Origin: Nymphaea colorata
Lineage: Eukaryota; Streptophyta; Magnoliopsida; Nymphaeales; Nymphaeaceae
Assembly (NCBI RefSeq): GCF_008831285.2
Contig: NC_045145.1
Span: 18,678,040-18,742,039, forward strand
Length of the DNA: 64,000 bases
Direction of reading: 5' to 3'
Within the stretch, counting starts at the first letter, position 1; each line of letters starts with the position of its first letter. Positions 22,961 through 47,999 of the stretch are shown here, in pieces. Below the pieces are notes generated by a model. It had not been told where the DNA came from. It ran no database searches and was given only the letters and a program-made list of their open reading frames with translations. A program made the position numbers and the translations under genes.

Positions 22961-25675
22961 AATTACCAGGCACATCTTTTGACCTTGCTCTTCAATTTCT
23001 TCCAGCTTCTGAAGCAGTTTTATCATTGGAAACCCAGCAGTATTTCGATTCCACGCAGCTCTGTCCATGACTTCAATGCAAGATTATGATTGGAGTTTTG
23101 AGAAAGAGAAAACAGAGGGAACACAGTCTTAACACGACAAGGGGTGGCATCAGGATTCCTTCATTGCAGGGACTGAACTATAGTCTCAAATTTTAACAGA
23201 GCCAAACTTTAAACTATCTTTGAACGTGACCAACATCCACGAATTGTTCATAAACTTCATGCATGGCTGCTACTCTCGCATGTTTTTTCTTTCACAATCA
23301 TGTTCCTAATTACCCTTAGACATATTGGTGGCCATTTCAGACATCACATTAGTTTGTAGGGGGCAATTGTAATTTTCATAGTAAATTGATAATTTTGTTA
23401 TTCAACTAGCAGTAACATAAAAATGTGGTGTTCCTACTTCCCTGTTTATTCTTCCTCTTTCTGCTTCATCATATTTCCTCTTCTTATTCACCATTTTTGT
23501 TGCCTATTTAGTTGTTCGATTTGATCAGTGTGTGCATGCTCAATGGGGACTGCGTTGGAGCTCTAACGACAGGGTTTTCAGTCTTGACGTGCTTCTGATG
23601 CATGGGTTGATAATACAATGAGAAACAGATATTCAACATCCATTATTATTATTATTATTATGTTGGTGTAGATTTTATGTTCGTTGATTGTTTCGTTTGG
23701 TTCACATCTTTTTTGTTTTAAAAGAAAATAAGAACATTGTTAGTGGGGATTAAAAAGCTTTCAGATGTATTGCATATAACCCATCTGATGCACTCTGTAA
23801 TAGCCACCAAGGGTGTTGTTGGCTAGACCTAACTCGGACTTGGTTCATTTGCCTTTTCATTTTCTCACGCTGAAAGGAATTACTGAAGCCAGCCGCCTTC
23901 CGTTCCCTGTGGGTTTCCCGCCATTTTCCATCGATCCGAGAGGGTGAGCGAAAAAAGATAGACCTCGCCGCTCTCTCTCTGCCCCTCTCTCTCCCGTTTG
24001 ATGGGCTGCCAACATACTGGAGAAGGAGGGAAACGTTAGGGCATCGTCTCAGTGCGCAGGGCACGACGGGTTGCTCTCTCTCTCTCTCTCTCCCCTCCCT
24101 GTTCCATTTGAACCAGAAGAAGAGGAAAGAAGGTGAGGAAGAGGTAGGCGACGGCGACGCCAGTGGAATCCGGTTGGAGATTAGGGTGATAGGCTTGGCT
24201 ATTACCCTTCTTTCCTGGGGCGAAAGAAGAGTGTGGTTACCATTGGCTCCAAGCCCGACCATTCTGGTCACCGGAGGTAAGCGCCACGCCGTCTAAGGTC
24301 CCCCAGATACATCTCCTCTGCTTTTTCTTTTTCCCCAGATCACCCGGCAGTCTCAATCGATTTTCTCCTCGTGAATTGATTTGGTTGGTCAGTGAAAGGG
24401 TTACAAGGAGGAATACAACGTCGCAGTGGTTTCTTCTCGTTTATTCATTTCGATGGTGATGCAAGTAACAAACGGGAACAGTGGGGAGACGACGCCTTGG
24501 GACCAGATCTTGCTGGACCCTGGTGCGTTGGTTTATACCTCTCGGTTTCATTTGGTTCCTTTCTTCTTGGTCGTTGTGGTTTTTGTTCATTTGATCAATT
24601 TCTCTGGTAGGAATGGGGACTTACAGTGGTACTTCCTCAGTAAGGAGGTTAAAAATTTCCTCAAAGTGCAACCATAGTCTATCTTTTGTGTGCTTAATCT
24701 GATACTGCTAGACCCAAAAAGGGGAATGAAGAGGAAAAACAATGTTTGAGAGGCAAAAAGTCACTTATTTCACGGTTTTGGACGGGAGAAACATCCTTCT
24801 TAAAGACTTGAATAGATGAATGAGCTTTGCTAGTAGAATCTTAATTTTTCAAATCGTCCTCAGTTTAAGTATTACATGATCTTTTACTTGTATAGGCTTC
24901 ACACTGAAGAGCTTTTGTCATTTGTGTTATGGATCCCTGGGCATTTATTGTGTGAAAAGTTTTCAGAATATTTATATATTTGCCATATATTTATGTATAT
25001 TAGCATTTAAAAGATGATGAACTTCTACCATTGGCAAGAACAAAGTTACAGCCGAAATTTTTCCGAAACGTATTTTGCGTTTCTATCTCATGTTATTTTT
25101 TTTTCCACAACCAAACTGCTTCTTTTCATGATTCCTGGTTTTGACACCATATACCTGAGTGTGCTCTTGTGTGACTGCTTAACAGTTCCATTGCAGACAG
25201 TTGTAGGCATGAGCTTGCTGAAAGTTATATGCATGAGCAAGTCGATTAATTCCAACAACTCCTGTTCTAGTTCAACTTGCACTGATTGCTTTTCATACAA
25301 CTTTTATTATGCAGCTCCTGTTTTTAGAACATGTAATTTTGAACTGCTTTGTGTAGTTTCTTCTGAAGAGCAAATAGCGTTCTTAAATTCATCAGAAAAG
25401 TGATTGTTTAAGTTGAAGCAGGTAAATGCTGAAATCAGTCGTGAATTGAAGCCAAGCCACTTAGTTACAACGGTAAGTTTTTTTGGCTGTTGAATTTTAT
25501 TTTTTCTTCATCAAACATAGTTAGAAATTTCGTGAATTTTGTTTCTTGTCCATGAAACACTGGTTAAAGATACATGGCCTTTATTTTTTTCTCTTTTATT
25601 CTTTTCAGGGAATTATTTCTAGATAAAAAAAACCTCATGAATTTTTATCTGTGACCATCAAACGAGACCTTTGTG
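22961..25675. other. Spacer and upstream region of DPB2
   Basis: At 23870-24300 a GC-richer segment with a (TC)n run (about 24073-24093) looks like a promoter or leader. Exon-like pieces follow: an open frame from an ATG at 24450 (MVMQVTNGNSGETTPWDQIL..) and a short block at 25423-25472 bounded by gaagcag and acg/gtaagt. I recognise no protein in them. They could be untranslated or coding exons of an unknown upstream transcript, or leader exons of DPB2. Confidence 0.3.
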
Positions 25676-25746: not shown

Positions 25747-28700
25747 ATGAACAAAATGGGTGCGGTGACCCTGAAAACAATCCAGCGGAAGTGCAAGTTG
25801 AAGGGATTAATCCTAACCCTTGATGCCATGAACGAGGTCCTCACCTTCGTCAATCGCCATGACGATGAAGATGAAGCCCTCGACTTCCTCCTCGATGAGG
25901 TCGTCAAGGAGTCACGTAATCCCCCCTTCCCCTTCTTCGCTTCTCTTTTACCTTCTTTCCTTCTTCTTTAGTCGTACTGCCCTTCTTGTTATGTTTATCA
26001 GCACAATACCTAACCTTTTTTTTTCCTTCTGTTGGTGAACTATGACTAGTTAAATCATCGGTTCTAAACAAGGAGACGGTTCATAGGGTCATTAATTTGC
26101 TGTTAGAGGCGGAGGTTGCCGTTGATTCAGTCGTGAGCTCCCGGAATCCTTTGGCCTTACGCATAATCGATGCTTTCAACATTCCCAAATTCTGCTACGA
26201 CCCGATAAAGAAATTGTTTTACCAGTGTGTTCATTAGTTCCCCTTTTCCCCCTTTTGTGTTTCTTTTTTCCTCCTCCTCCTCTGTTTGCTCATTTCTTGG
26301 TTCACACTTTATGCAACCATAGGCATAAAGGAGATCTTTCGATCCATGGGGATCCGTCTGCAAAAGCTTCCCTATATAGGGACAGGTTTCAATTGTTGTA
26401 TCAGAGGCTCTGTCGCGATCGCCACTTCTCTAAACGTGCATTTCAAACTGACCTATGCGACTCTGAAGGACCGAGTTCTGAGGTTGAGGATTAGACACAT
26501 TTTCCTTCTTACTTGGATTTTGAGTTTGTGAATGTTAGCTTCATCTTATGGCTCATTCGTTTGTGTAGATAACTCCAATCCAGTCGCTCATAGGATGCAC
26601 CGGTAGACGCTGGATCATGGGTGTAATTTCTCAATTGGAGGACGGTCATTTCTTCTTGGAAGATTTGACTGCAGCTGTGGAAGTCGACTTGTCCAGTGCA
26701 ATATCCTTGACGCTGTCCTCATAGTCTTTTAGCTCATGGATTTGCTTGTTTTCTACTAGACTGCAAATTGCCCTTGGAAGCCATGTCATAGTCCACCATT
26801 CTCTAGCTTGGATTCTTATTTTTTATATGAATGAACATTGTCCTTCACTTGATACACAAACACATGTTCCGTGAAAATATTGTATTGAATCTTTCTCTCT
26901 TTTTTTGATTAGAAGCTGTCATGGAGTCATCATCAATCAATGTTTAACAAATCTGCTTGATGTGGCTTCTAATAGTACTTTGCTTTTATCCGGTGAGTCC
27001 TGATACGGTAACATATATCCTTGATTGGTTGTAGCCTGGTCTTCAACTGATCAAATAAATGGATAAATGTATTCACTTTTTTCACTGCATTTTTGATGAG
27101 AGCTTGGATTTCATGTGGTTAAGTTACTAGAATGTGGTTTTCCCATTTGCATTAAAAAAGGGGACTCCATTTTATACATTGCAAACTTGGGAGCCTGTGT
27201 GATATCAATGTCAGATTGATTTCAAGTGACTGTTTATCTTAATATCAAACACAAGATTACGTCTGGATTCTTTGTGGAGAACACCATAATTGTGGCAGAA
27301 GGCGAGCTGCTTCCGAGTGGTATATTTCAGGTCTGCATTTTTTAGTATTATTTTTCACCAAACGCCATTCTACATGCTATCTTTATTTGATGAGTCTGCT
27401 TGAATATAACTTGTTTTCTAGTTTGTCATGATCTTTCATAGTACGTTCAGTGGGGTGCTGTTTGACTTTACATTCATTGTACTCTCCCTTTCTCCCTCTT
27501 TACGCATGCTTTCCTATTTCTTTATGCACAAATTGAATGGTAATTTTTGGTGAACTTTAGTAGTATATCTGATACAAAAAAAGAAGTCATTTATGTAATT
27601 TTCCAAGAAATTGAACTAATATTCTTGCATATATTTAAAAGCTCTTGAGTTTAGGTGAAGGACTGACTCTCCCTACATTTGATATAAGTAGAGGCTGCGA
27701 TGTTGATAACTCCTCTTTCTATGTGCAAAAACCCTGTGTGCGTAGTACTTGTAAGCAGTCCTATTTAAATTTTTGAGAAAGTTGAAATGAATATGTACGT
27801 TGAAACCTTTTTTTAGGGAATGGAAACAAAAACTGAGGCAGGTTGGTATTAGTTGGCACTTTGGTGAGTTTGAGCCTTGCTGCTATGTCACATGAATTCT
27901 TCAAAAAGGGAGCTGCATCCACATTGATGCGACTAGGGTGCGGGTTACTGTCCTACGGATAAGGGTGCGGCTCCACCATGCACCTGGGCATAGTCAATAC
28001 TTGTCGAGTACTGCTGACTGCACCTGCTCTTGTTCTCTTCCCCTCCCTCTTTATTTCTTTCTTTTTCCTTTTCTCTGTTTCTCCTTTTCTTTTCCTTTCT
28101 TTTTTTCCTTTCTTTTTTTTCCTTTTTTCTCTCTCTTTTTCTTTGTCTTGTCCTTTAAAAAGGTTGATAACGTCTAGTTGTCCTTTCTTAAGGGGCCGTT
28201 TGATGCCCTGGAAATCCACTGTAGCAGTGGAAAAAAATTTGAAAATTTGAAAATTTTTCCTTCTCATCAAACTTAGAATTTTTTTTTTTACCGTTAAAAG
28301 TGGAAACGGCAAAATATTTCTGGAAAAATTTTTCCAGCCAGAGGGATGGAAAAATTTTTCAGGAAATATTTTTGTGACCGTTGGAGGAGGAAGGAGGGAG
28401 GAGGAGCGCAGAGGAGGAAGGGAAGGAAGGAGGGAGGAGGAGGAGGAAGGGAAGGATGGAGGAGAAAGAAGGGGAGGAGGGCACGGTGAGGAGGGAAGGA
28501 GAAGAGGGCACAGCGAGGAGGGAAGGAGAAGAGGGAAAGAAGGGAGAGGGGAAGAGGGCACGAGGAGGGAAGGGGAAGAGGGCACGAGGAGGGAAGGGGA
28601 AGAGGGGAAGAAGGGGAAGTAGGGGAGGAGGGCACGAGGAGGGAAGGAGAAGAGGGGAAGAGGGGAAGAAGGGGAAGAGGGGAAGAAGGGGAGGAGGGCA

Positions 28701-31700
28701 CGCGAGGGGAAGAGGGGAAGAAGGGGAGGAGGGCACGCCGCACGCGAGGGGAAGGGGAAGGGGAAGAGGGGAAGAAGGGGAAGAGGGAGAAGAGGGGAAG
28801 AGGGGAAGAAGGGAAGGAGGGCACGCGAGGGGAAGGAGAAGAGGGGAAGAAGGGGAAGAGGGAGAAGAGGGGAAGAAGGGGAGGATGGCACGAGGAGGGA
28901 AGGAGAAGAGGGGAAGAAGGGAAAGAGGGAGAAGAGGGGAAGAGGGGAAGAAGGGAAAGAGGGAGAAGAGGGGAAGAGGGGAAGAAGGGAAAGAGGGAGA
29001 AGAGGGGAAGAAGGGGAGGAGGGCACGCAAGGGGAAGGAGAAGAGGGGAAGAAGGGGAAGAAGGGGAAGAGGGAGAAGAGGGGAAGAAGGGCACGCCAGG
29101 GCACCTCCCCACGTCCCCCGCCGCCGCCGATGGCACCGCCCCCACCGCCGCCGATGGCACCGCCTGACGCCTCTTCCCCAAAATCCTCCCTCCTTCCTTT
29201 CCCTTCCCTTCTTCCTCCTCCTTCCCTTCCCTTCCCTTCCCTTCTTCCTCCTCCTCCCTTCTCTTCCCTTCTTCCTCCTTCCCTTCCCTTCCCTTCCCTT
29301 CTTCCTCCTCCTCCTCCTCCTTCCCTTCCCTTCCCTTTCCTTCCCTTCTTCCATTTCTACCAAACGACGAAATTTCTTTCCGGAAAAATATTTCTTACTT
29401 AACAAACACAAGCTTGTTTTGGAAATATGGAAATTTTTTTCTTATTTCTCAATTCCAGAAATATATTTCTGGAAATTTTTTTCCGTTTCCATGGTTTCCA
29501 GCCATCAAACGGCCCCTAAAGGATGACCAGCCTGTCATCCTGTTTAAAGGACGACAACGGTTGTCAAGTCTGTTATGCACCTTTGTTATAAATTTAGTAA
29601 ACTATGATTAGCTTCTTGGGAGCAACATTTGGAAAATCCTGGTGGCTTTTATTCACGTCTTCCTTAAATGTGTGGATTGAAAGTTTAAACATTGTAAATT
29701 TGGAAGTGGCTTTAGAGCAGTCTTGTATCTAAGATTTTGAAAAGTTTGGACAACAATCTCCTTGGTTGCAAGGTTGGTCACGTGTACAAACTACATGACA
29801 AGTTCAAAACTGAAATCGATAAATCCCTCGTTTAGCAGATGATTGCACACATAGTTTTACCAAGGTCTGTGACAAAAAAATCAAGAATGAAATAGATGCC
29901 TTTTCTTCAATTTTGAATTGCCTCTGCTGAATTTTTGAAAATTTGTTGTTCTTAGAAGATAGTTTAGCATGAAATTCTTGGTGTACCTATATGTTTGGTA
30001 TTCCTATTATTAATTTTTTCTAGATAGAAGTCTCAATTGTCGTTATTGATGCATTTCTATGAAATTGTGATGCTCTGTCAATTAGATTTTGTAAATTTAT
30101 TTTTTAGTGTGCTTGTTCATGTTTATCTACACGTTTGAATTTTGTTGAGCTCTTTACTTTTGTAACATGCCTGTATTAAGAGGAAAAGGGTTGGGGAGGG
30201 GGAACTTTGCCCCAGGTTCAACGACTTGTACATCATTGCTACACATATTTGGTTATTTTCAAAAATCAATGCAGGAGACTAAATGAGCTGAGACTCTTCA
30301 ACTGATTCATGCAATCTGTTGGCTTGAGGAGATCATCACAGTTCTTAAGTTGCTTAGTTATTGACATCCTTGGGTGCATATATACATGGTGTTGGCGACT
30401 GTTTTATCTGATTAATTCCTAAATTTCTTAGACCTGTTTTTGTTTCTTTCGCCACTATGAGAAAGGAACCTTAATGGTTGTGGGCTTTTTCAGGTGCGTG
30501 CATGTGGGTTTCCACCTTTGGAAGACAGAAATACCTCTCTTTCATTACTTGCAGCGCTTGATTTTTTTGGTGCTGGTAGCATTTCACAAGAAGAAAATGT
30601 ATCCTGCACTCATGCTTCTTTAGATTTTTGCTCATGGAAATTCATGTCTGTGTTTTTGTATGGTGCAATGCATGTATTTGTGCAGTTTTATATGTGCATG
30701 CTTGTTTTCCTATATTTCTTTATAGATTAAACTTGCTGAGCTGGAGAAAAATGCATTCAATGACATGTTCGTCATTTTGTCTGATGTCTGGCTTGATTCC
30801 CAGGAGGTAATATTTTAGTAATGCAAATCGGCTAGGGGTTATGAAAATTCATGTATGCTAAGACCCAATCTTGTTGCTTTTCCTGTAGTGAAGACTTTGG
30901 AAAAGTTAGCTGCAGTATTTGATGGTTATGAAAATGTGGAGGTGGTGCCATCTTTGTTTGTTTTAATGGGGAATTTCTGCTCTCGTCCATGTAACCTTGC
31001 GTTCCATTCATTTTCGAGTTTGAGGTGAGTGTTGGCTCAAACTTAAATTTCCAATATATGAATATGAGGTATAGTTACAAACAAAACACGGTTTTAATTT
31101 TTTCTCCACTTTTGAAGATTGCAGTTTGGGAAGCTTGGAGAAATGATTAAGGCTCATCCACGATTAATGGAAGGGAGTCGATTTCTATTTATTCCGGGTC
31201 CCAGTGATGCAGGTCATACTTACATTATCCTGTGAACTTCTTGGGTTTGGGTTTCAGCAACTTGCTTTCTCTAATGCATTTGATCTTCTATTTTTATTAA
31301 CTTCATTCATTATTGTACACTCTTAGGCTTTCATAGGATCGCTCAGAAGAAATCAAGTGACAGATTCTTAGTTATAGACTTGCAAATGAGGTTCCGTGCA
31401 TCATTTTTTGGCTAAAAGAGTTATTGTTTTGGATTTACAGGTCCTTCAACTGCCCTTCCTAGGTGTGCCTTACCCAAATATCTAACTGAAGAGCTCCTAA
31501 AGCATGTACCGGATGCAGTCTTCTTGAGTAACCCTTGCAGGTAACTTTTTGCATTTGATGTGACACGAAGCATGCTGGAAGATTATTGAAGTATTGAACT
31601 TAGTAGTCAAAACATGCCTTTGTGTCGGCCTAGGTGCTCTTATGGCCTAGGTGCTCTTATGCCCTAGGCACACATTTTCCACTAGGCTGTGCCACCTAGG

Positions 31701-33295
31701 TGCCTAAGAATTTTTTTCCCTTTTTTCTCCATCTAATTTTACTTTTTTCATTCTTGTTCTTTTGTTTTTTTACCGTAGTTTACTTTTTTTTTTTCCTTTT
31801 CATTCTTCATCTTCTTCCTTGTTATATTTTTGCCTTTCATATACTGTTGTCTACCTTCCTTGGCTTGCTTGGTGGGCCACGGCCGAGTCCCATCTAGTAC
31901 TTTTGACTACTAAAGTAATGAAGTACAAAGGCCTTGTGATAGTAGACAAACTATTGGATGAATGACACGTATTTGCTACGGATGTTTACATAAGAAATAT
32001 CTACTCTTAAAGGTGAAATGGATATTCGGTTCAGTTGATGACACAAATCACAAGTGAATTTAGGTTAAGCAGTGAAGGCTGAAAAGAAATATAAAAAAAG
32101 TTAAATCATGTTGACTGTATCTGCTGTCCAAGTGTTCCAATTTTTTTAGCATATCATCTGTGTGGATAAGCATGCTAAGAAAAATGTCTCTGTTGTTATA
32201 GCTGAAGCATAATGCAGATTATTATGCAGCTTGTGGGTGTGGTTTCATTCTCAGGACTGTCCTGGAGAACTTGTAATACAAATTTCACCTCTATAGCTTG
32301 GCTTTTGATGCGGATCATGAAATTTGTGCGCTTTGGCCGTCATAATGTGGCCACTGCAAAGAGGTGACAGAAGTAGCAGGTTAAACCAGAGCTGTAAAGT
32401 TTCTTTCCCAGAAAGTTGTTAATATCTTACTGAAAAAGGCAATACTGAATTTAGTGCACAACCAACGACTTCTTTCTATATCTCTTCCCACTTGGGTTCT
32501 CATTTGATGTTCTTTTCCATATAAGCTTGTTTCTTATGTTAGATGTAGATTATATTATGAAGCCTCTAATAAGGCCTGCATGTTCGCTTGGAATGATGCT
32601 CCGATCATAATGCATGGTGATTGGATAATTTGGATTGATGGGGGACCAATGCTTTCTTGAAAATGACATTTTTCTCCAATTGCCTTTGTGGTTTTTCGTC
32701 TGCTGTTTTTTTCCTTTCTTGTTTCCAGGTTGATATCTTCAGTTTTTTACTGCAGGATAAAGTTTTACACGCAGGAAATTGTGTTTTTTCGGCATGATCT
32801 ACTGTACAGAATGCGTCGATCTTGCCTTATTCCTCCTACAAAGGATGAGACAGATGATCCTTTTGAGCATGTAAAGTTTCCTTCTGTTGTAGTTGAAATA
32901 TTATTTCCTAGACACAAACTCTAATGAAAGCATCTTTGTTTGATGCAGCTTGTTGCTACCATTTCTCATCAAAGTCATCTCTGCCCTTTGCCACTGACTG
33001 TTCAACCAATAATTTGGAACTATGACCACTGTCTCCGCTTGTACCCTACACCGCATACGGTAATATTGTAGTATTGTGCTTTCACTGTTTAACGCGATTC
33101 TTTTGTGTTTTGCTTTATCTTATTGCCTCTTTATCTTGTTTGTCGCCAATGCAGATAGTATTAGGTGATCGGAGTGACCAGAAGATGTTCAAGTATATGG
33201 GCACTACTTGCTTCAATCCAGGATCGTTTTCTAATGACAGTACATTTGTTGCCTATCGGCCTTGCACTCAGGAAGTTGAGCTTTCGTCCTTATAG
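25747..33295 (+). CDS. DPB2: DNA polymerase epsilon subunit B (DPB2/POLE2), 13 exons, 530 aa
   Basis: Second subunit of the leading-strand replicative polymerase epsilon, nuclear, essential for origin firing. Exons: 25747-25915, 26050-26224, 26323-26482, 26569-26700, 27253-27330, 30494-30598, 30726-30806, 30894-31024, 31118-31212, 31441-31540, 32756-32870, 32949-33059, 33155-33295 (TAG). All phases join without a break. The protein has the N-terminal helical domain ([11 protein letters not shown]..), the [22 protein letters not shown]-fold region, and the inactive phosphoesterase domain with [62 protein letters not shown] and the terminus [16 protein letters not shown]. Length matches Arabidopsis DPB2 (about 526). 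Intron 4 is AT-AC. Exon 8 must use the second of two close acceptor AGs (tgtag/tgaag) to keep frame. Introns 5 (3163 bp) and 10 (1215 bp) are swollen by repeats. Gene intact. Confidence 0.95.
26701..27252 (+). other. DPB2: U12-type AT-AC intron (DPB2 intron 4)
   Basis: Exon 4 ends at GCA and the intron opens ATATCCTT, the exact minor-spliceosome 5' splice consensus. It closes CAAACAC before AAG ATT ACG. A branch-like TATCTTAAT lies with its branch A 10 nt before the 3' end, the short spacing required by U12 introns. Only this boundary gives the conserved join DLSSA-KITSGFF. No GT-AG alternative preserves the frame. Confidence 0.88.
28192..29516. mobile_element. PIF/Harbinger-like non-autonomous fold-back element in DPB2 intron 5
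   Basis: Terminal inverted repeats GGGGCCGTTTGATG (28192-28205) and CATCAAACGGCCCC (29503-29516) are flanked by TAA on both sides (28189-28191 and 29517-29519). TTA/TAA 3-bp duplications suit Tourist/Harbinger-type elements. The subterminal parts (gaaaaatttttc.., ggaaatattt..) also pair with each other. The centre is purine-rich on the left (28376-29098) and pyrimidine-rich on the right (about 29180-29345), so the whole can fold back. There is no transposase. A similar short repeat also flanks the element (GTCCTTTAAA.AGG.TGA at about 28150 and its complement at about 29548), so the true unit may be slightly larger. Confidence 0.7.
28376..29098 (+). repeat. Polypurine minisatellite
   Basis: About 720 bp made of variants of GAGGGGAAGAAGGGGAAGAGG, GAGGGAGAAGA and GGGCACG(A/C)GAGG. 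The + strand is nearly all purine apart from GGGCACG spacers. Long open frames on both strands here are by-products of the biased composition, not genes. Confidence 0.9.
29765..29935 (+). repeat. Intronic segment shared with the FAR-array spacers
   Basis: Words such as tcac.tgtacaaacta, 'caagttcaaaa', 'taaatccctc.tt.agc', 'gatgattgca.acatagtt' and 'aagaatgaaatagatgcc' recur in the same order at about 41240-41400 and (shortened) 57665-57795. This is either a dispersed repeat or a piece of DPB2 intron 5 copied into the array. Confidence 0.7.
31615..31960 (+). repeat. Dispersed repeat in DPB2 intron 10
   Basis: Begins with two direct copies of GCCTAGGTGCTCTTATG, then a T-rich stretch, then 'acttttgactactaaagtaatgaa'. 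The T-rich plus 'ttgactactRaagYaatgaa' part recurs at about 40230-40435 and 56610-56830 in the FAR-array spacers. Confidence 0.55.
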
Positions 33296-47576: not shown

Positions 47577-47999
47577 TTGTTCCTTTTGTTTTTTCCGTTA
47601 GCTCCCACACCAGCACTTTCTCTTCTCCCATTAAACGCAACCAATGTTGCTGGTGCTGGGGATCTTTCGGCTTTCTTGAAGGTGAAGCTGAAAGAAAGCA
47701 ACACGATAATGTTGAAAATTAAATATAAGAAAAGACAGAGATAAGAAGAAAGAGAAGTATTATTACGATGGCATTTACAATTGTTTCTAAAAATTAGCTG
47801 AAAGAAGGCATCTATCGACCATGAAGTCGATAGTGCTCAATACCTTTATAGTTACGATGGCATTTACAATTGTTTCTAAAAATTAGCCATAAATGAGGGG
47901 TATTATATTTCCACATACCTGTCACCGTTATTCATATCCCTTACTTCAGCACATTATCACATTTTTTATAGATTAAGCCATCGATATCCTTCCAAGCTT
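47577..47999. repeat. Array spacer block continued after the copia insertion
   Basis: Resumes the match to the second spacer copy (60046-60222: 'ctcccacacca', 'aaacgcaacca', 'gatctttcgg'), then contains the 'aggcatctatcgacc .. gatatccttcca' segment (47801-47998) that also occurs at 53118-53306 and 60240-60378. Confidence 0.75.

Follow-up and report, generated by a model that had tools for sequence, protein, structure and literature searches.

A predicted U12-type AT-AC intron in the DNA polymerase epsilon subunit B gene (DPB2) of Nymphaea colorata

In one database, 26% of Arabidopsis U12-type introns have AT-AC ends (PMC7367187, excerpt). Intron 4 of the Nymphaea colorata DPB2 gene, described here, shares the AT-AC ends of these introns, a likeness at the class level. 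In a mouse study, Pole2 is named among the genes with affected U12 introns (PMC7312986, excerpt). Mouse Pole2 and DPB2 are orthologous and have the U12 class in common; the comparison is at the level of gene and class only. Given this mouse example, a dependence of DPB2 on the minor spliceosome would not be peculiar to this plant. In addition, conservation between human and Arabidopsis is greater for the positions of U12 introns than for those of U2 introns (PMC2426677, excerpt). Thus, intron 4 is of a kind already known, and since a U12 intron is also on record for the mouse gene, intron 4 is ordinary rather than surprising.

The literature was searched for both gene names. No text was found that has both AT5G22110, the Arabidopsis DPB2, and U12. 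Among the matches listed, none connects DPB2 and a U12 intron in its title or the opening of its abstract; supplementary intron lists may already have intron 4. DPB2 appears in PMC6368322 in a reference only, with U12 not found in the main text, and both DPB2 and the word “polymerase” are absent from the main texts of PMC2426677, PMC4892727 and PMC5853960. For POLE2, the matches listed in one search contain no occurrence of “U12-type intron”, and in PMC5538549 POLE2 and the minor spliceosome come up separately from each other.

The window, i.e., the whole stretch of DNA analysed, is 64,000 nt in length. The gene at 25747..33295 (forward strand) was assembled by hand from the sequence. It has 13 coding exons with a coding sequence of 1,593 bases including the stop, and the spliced translation of 530 aa is open throughout. 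Residues 16–529, nearly the whole length, align to 5vbn_A, DNA polymerase epsilon subunit 2, which we take to be the human chain (E = 3.4e-92). The product also matches 6hv8_B, DNA polymerase epsilon subunit B, presumably the yeast chain (E = 4.5e-39), and Pfam PF04042 scores 166.7 bits (cut-off 29.1). Full-length similarity and the PF04042 domain, both expected of DPB2/POLE2, are thus present, and from these three matches the gene is identified, by sequence similarity, as DPB2/POLE2, which encodes an essential subunit of the replication apparatus. The 13-exon open model and the 5vbn_A match also bear out the assignment made in an earlier note on this DNA, that the intron under study is the fourth of DPB2.

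A frameshift at intron 7 was considered and rejected. The acceptor CCTGTAG gives the wrong frame, and the one that follows, GAAG|ACT with its end at 30893, mends it. Since this acceptor restores the frame together with an ungapped match to DVWLDQVEVLEKL, no frameshift is needed. A second DPB2 copy was sought in the same assembly as the window (407.8 Mb, 783 contigs). PF04042 is present in four places, two of them within the DPB2 gene itself, and the other loci, L001 and L004, are without a tblastn match to DPB2 at 1e-3; a second copy elsewhere was therefore rejected. Exon-like stretches are also seen by eye upstream of DPB2 at 24453–25475; they include an ATG near position 24453 and, ahead of a GT, a piece that reads VNAEISRELKPSHLVTT. 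These may be 5′ leader exons or belong to another gene. Intron 5 is 3,163 nt long and has within it a transposable-element-like stretch at 28192–29516. This stretch displays GGGGCCGTTTGATG inverted ends with TAA on both sides, inner inverted arms, and a filling of GA-rich and CT-rich repeats; we label it, as an assumption, PIF/Harbinger-type.

Exon 4 (26569..26700, forward strand) ends with ...VDLSSA on a codon boundary, and exon 5 (27253..27330, forward strand) starts with KITSGFF. Between them lies intron 4 (26701..27252, forward strand), 552 nt in length and in phase 0. The intron opens with ATATCCTTG and closes with TATCTTAATATCAAACAC / TTTATCTTAATATCAAACAC; the 3′ splice site CAC occupies 27250..27252 on the same strand, and the putative branch A lies 10 nt away from the intron's final base. 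The coordinates and letters given for the intron in the earlier note match the sequence, as do the AT start, the CAC end and the distance of the branch A from the 3′ end. The terminal AT and AC dinucleotides (ATAT...CAC, at 26701 and 27252) are assigned on the basis of the protein alignment, in which the join DLSSA|KITSGFF aligns without gaps to DLSKA|QFHSGLY of 5vbn_A.

Alternative borders were enumerated with the last exon base at 26600–26859 and the first exon base at 27100–27319. The types GT-AG, GC-AG, AT-AC, AT-AG and GT-AC were included, and only in-frame, stop-free pairs were kept. Of the 95 such pairs, AT-AC 26700/27253 fits POLE2 best with a score of 150, a measure that relies on the same POLE2 chain (5vbn_A) and is thus protein-level evidence only. 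Next are AT-AC 26702/27261 (139) and AT-AG 26700/27256 (138), followed by GT-AC 26695/27251 (135), GC-AG 26697/27256 (133) and the best GT-AG pair (132). The earlier statement that the protein join requires exactly these borders therefore holds insofar as they are the best of the 95, but is slightly too strong in view of the score of the AT-AG pair.

That AT-AG pair represents the other reading that survives best, although it is very improbable. Here the intron would be U12-type with its 3′ end at the AAG ending at 27255, and the Lys would be lost. AAG does follow directly after CAC, and the branch A would then be 13 nt away; however, a one-residue gap against POLE2 is introduced, and an AT start expects CAC as its partner. 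Less probable still is that the true borders are GT-AG borders nearby, for example a donor after 26695 with an exon start at 27227, and that the AT-AC appearance arose by chance. GT-AG pairs are not scarce, at 24 of the 95, but the best of them falls 18 points short of the AT-AC pair and swaps SA for nine residues (MTVYLNIKH) in a stretch that is otherwise ungapped against POLE2. A second ATATCCTTGA, identical in all ten letters to the 5′ site, is found within intron 4 at 27015–27024 and is a possible decoy. The ATATCCTT at this position was rejected as the true donor, as its use leaves 314 surplus bases with stops.

The U12 consensus consists of the 5′ site RTATCCTTT and the branch site TCCTTAACT (PMC2846911, excerpt). 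With the borders at 26700/27253, the 5′ splice site ATATCCTTG (26701..26709, forward strand) matches RTATCCTTT at 8/9 positions. The branch site TATCTTAAT (27235..27243, forward strand), which resembles TCCTTAAC and lies close to the 3′ end, matches TTCCTTAAY at 7/9 positions, with 27242 as the branch A; the match is imperfect, being off consensus at two positions, and the CTTAA core is intact. By a crude count among the 12 introns of DPB2, a 5′ score of 8/9 is reached by intron 4 alone and one of 7/9 by introns 6 and 10; at the branch, introns 5 (AACCTTAAT, 19 nt) and 6 likewise reach 7/9. As background, 35 of 10,815 AT sites on both strands of the window score at least 8/9 against RTATCCTTT. 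A branch match of at least 7/9 at 8–21 nt accompanies 151 of 2,828 YAC sites on both strands, and under the stricter CTTAAY core the number is 24 of 2,836 YAC sites. U12-type introns are expected to be without a pyrimidine-rich tract ahead of the 3′ end. In intron 4 the fraction of pyrimidines there is 0.55; values for the other 11 introns lie between 0.50 and 0.82, two of them below intron 4, which therefore does not stand out in this respect. Phase 0 is under-represented among U12 introns (PMC7367187, excerpt), and intron 4 thus has the less common phase for its class. Overall, a U12-type reading is very likely. That the major spliceosome processes this AT-AC intron is barely conceivable: among the U2-type introns of Arabidopsis, 0.01% do have AT-AC ends (PMC7367187, excerpt), but ATATCCTT and the CTTAAT placed 10 nt from the end count as U12 signals by consensus (PMC2846911, excerpt).

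The 8-mer RTATCCTT is found at 11 sites in the window, compared with 5.0 expected, and none of 100 shuffles reaches 11. Thus the 8-mer by itself marks nothing, and what is special about that of intron 4 is its placement where the protein match sets the end of an exon. Common upstream flanks group four of these sites into two pairs. These are ATATCCTT sites at 47984, 53295, 36789 and 63480, and the flanks are attaagccatcg and acattgtct. The two pairs appear to represent repeat copies, so dispersed repeats account for part of the 8-mer excess.

The genome was also searched for minor-spliceosome snRNA genes. The best 40–46 candidates were scored in each search, and the copy numbers that follow are lower bounds. 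A single Rfam match to U12 scores 88.9 bits (cut-off 53), and its GTAAGGAA is intact. U11 is likewise represented by a single match, which spans the complete model (positions 1–134) and scores 75.0 bits (cut-off 39). For U6atac, at least five matches exceed the cut-off (33). Two of the U6atac copies (L006 and L007, with 97.6 and 92.1 bits) cover the full model and have T-rich 3′ ends. Three weaker U6atac-like matches, L008, L009 and L010, display altered 3′ parts and are perhaps pseudogenes. The window itself has no Rfam match at gathering thresholds. When paired with the plant's own U6atac element, the intron 4 5′ site gives −5.5 kcal/mol, compared with −6.4 for a consensus-like control. The branch region with the plant's own U12 element gives −7.3 kcal/mol (control −9.9), and A27242 is left unpaired.

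Intron 6 (30599..30725, forward strand) has GT-AG ends and is of uncertain class. It has a U12-like 5′ site, GTATCCTGC, with a 7/9 match, and a weak branch-like sequence, TTCCTATAT, with a 7/9 match at 11 nt. It is without the CTTAA core, and its end is pyrimidine-rich (0.82). In the window, 133 of 6,279 GT sites and 150 of 2,940 YAG sites provide the background for these scores. Together, the two signals would be expected at a rate of about 0.001 per intron, or about 1% for all 11 GT introns, assuming that they are independent and that random GT sites represent real donors. The 5′ site with the plant's own U6atac element gives −4.6 kcal/mol, weaker than that of intron 4. For the branch region, pairing with the plant's own U12 element gives −13.8 kcal/mol, which is stronger than in intron 4, with much of the pairing in a U-rich stretch. 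Intron 6 is thus a weak second U12-like candidate, and may be a relic U12 intron or a product of chance. It is unlikely that intron 6, with its GT-AG ends, is a second, decaying U12-type intron of DPB2 beside the AT-AC intron 4. If it is, retention of either intron would tie the supply of DPB2 to minor-spliceosome activity, and intron 6 would represent a U12-to-U2 conversion caught half way.

With high confidence, intron 4 of DPB2 is predicted to be a genuine U12-type AT-AC intron that the minor spliceosome removes, with the exons joined at 26700/27253. The prediction draws on the sequence signals, the fit of the join to POLE2 and the U11, U12 and U6atac genes of the genome, and is in line with the naming of mouse Pole2 among genes with U12 introns. 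In the minor spliceosome, the 5′ site is recognised by U11 and then by U6atac. At the intron 4 donor, U11 followed by U6atac would recognise ATATCCTT, and U12 would pair around ATCTTAAT, freeing the A at 27242 for attack. Exon 4 would then be joined to exon 5. U4atac is presumed to be present in the genome.

The length of intron 4 is a multiple of three, but when the frame is continued from exon 4 into the intron, a stop appears after 7 codons. Full-length DPB2 therefore needs intron 4 removed; retention would truncate the protein, and correct DPB2 would thus depend on the splicing of this intron. We consider it soundly inferred that DPB2 would be dependent on the minor spliceosome. Loss of function of DPB2 arrests Arabidopsis embryos (PMC6801657, excerpt), and for this reason the splicing of intron 4 may add to the growth defects of minor-spliceosome mutants. 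The intron is also a case for annotation, as a predictor limited to GT-AG introns would miss the join and alter DPB2. If the position of intron 4 is that of the U12 intron of animal POLE2, it would be one more minor intron that predates the plant-animal split.
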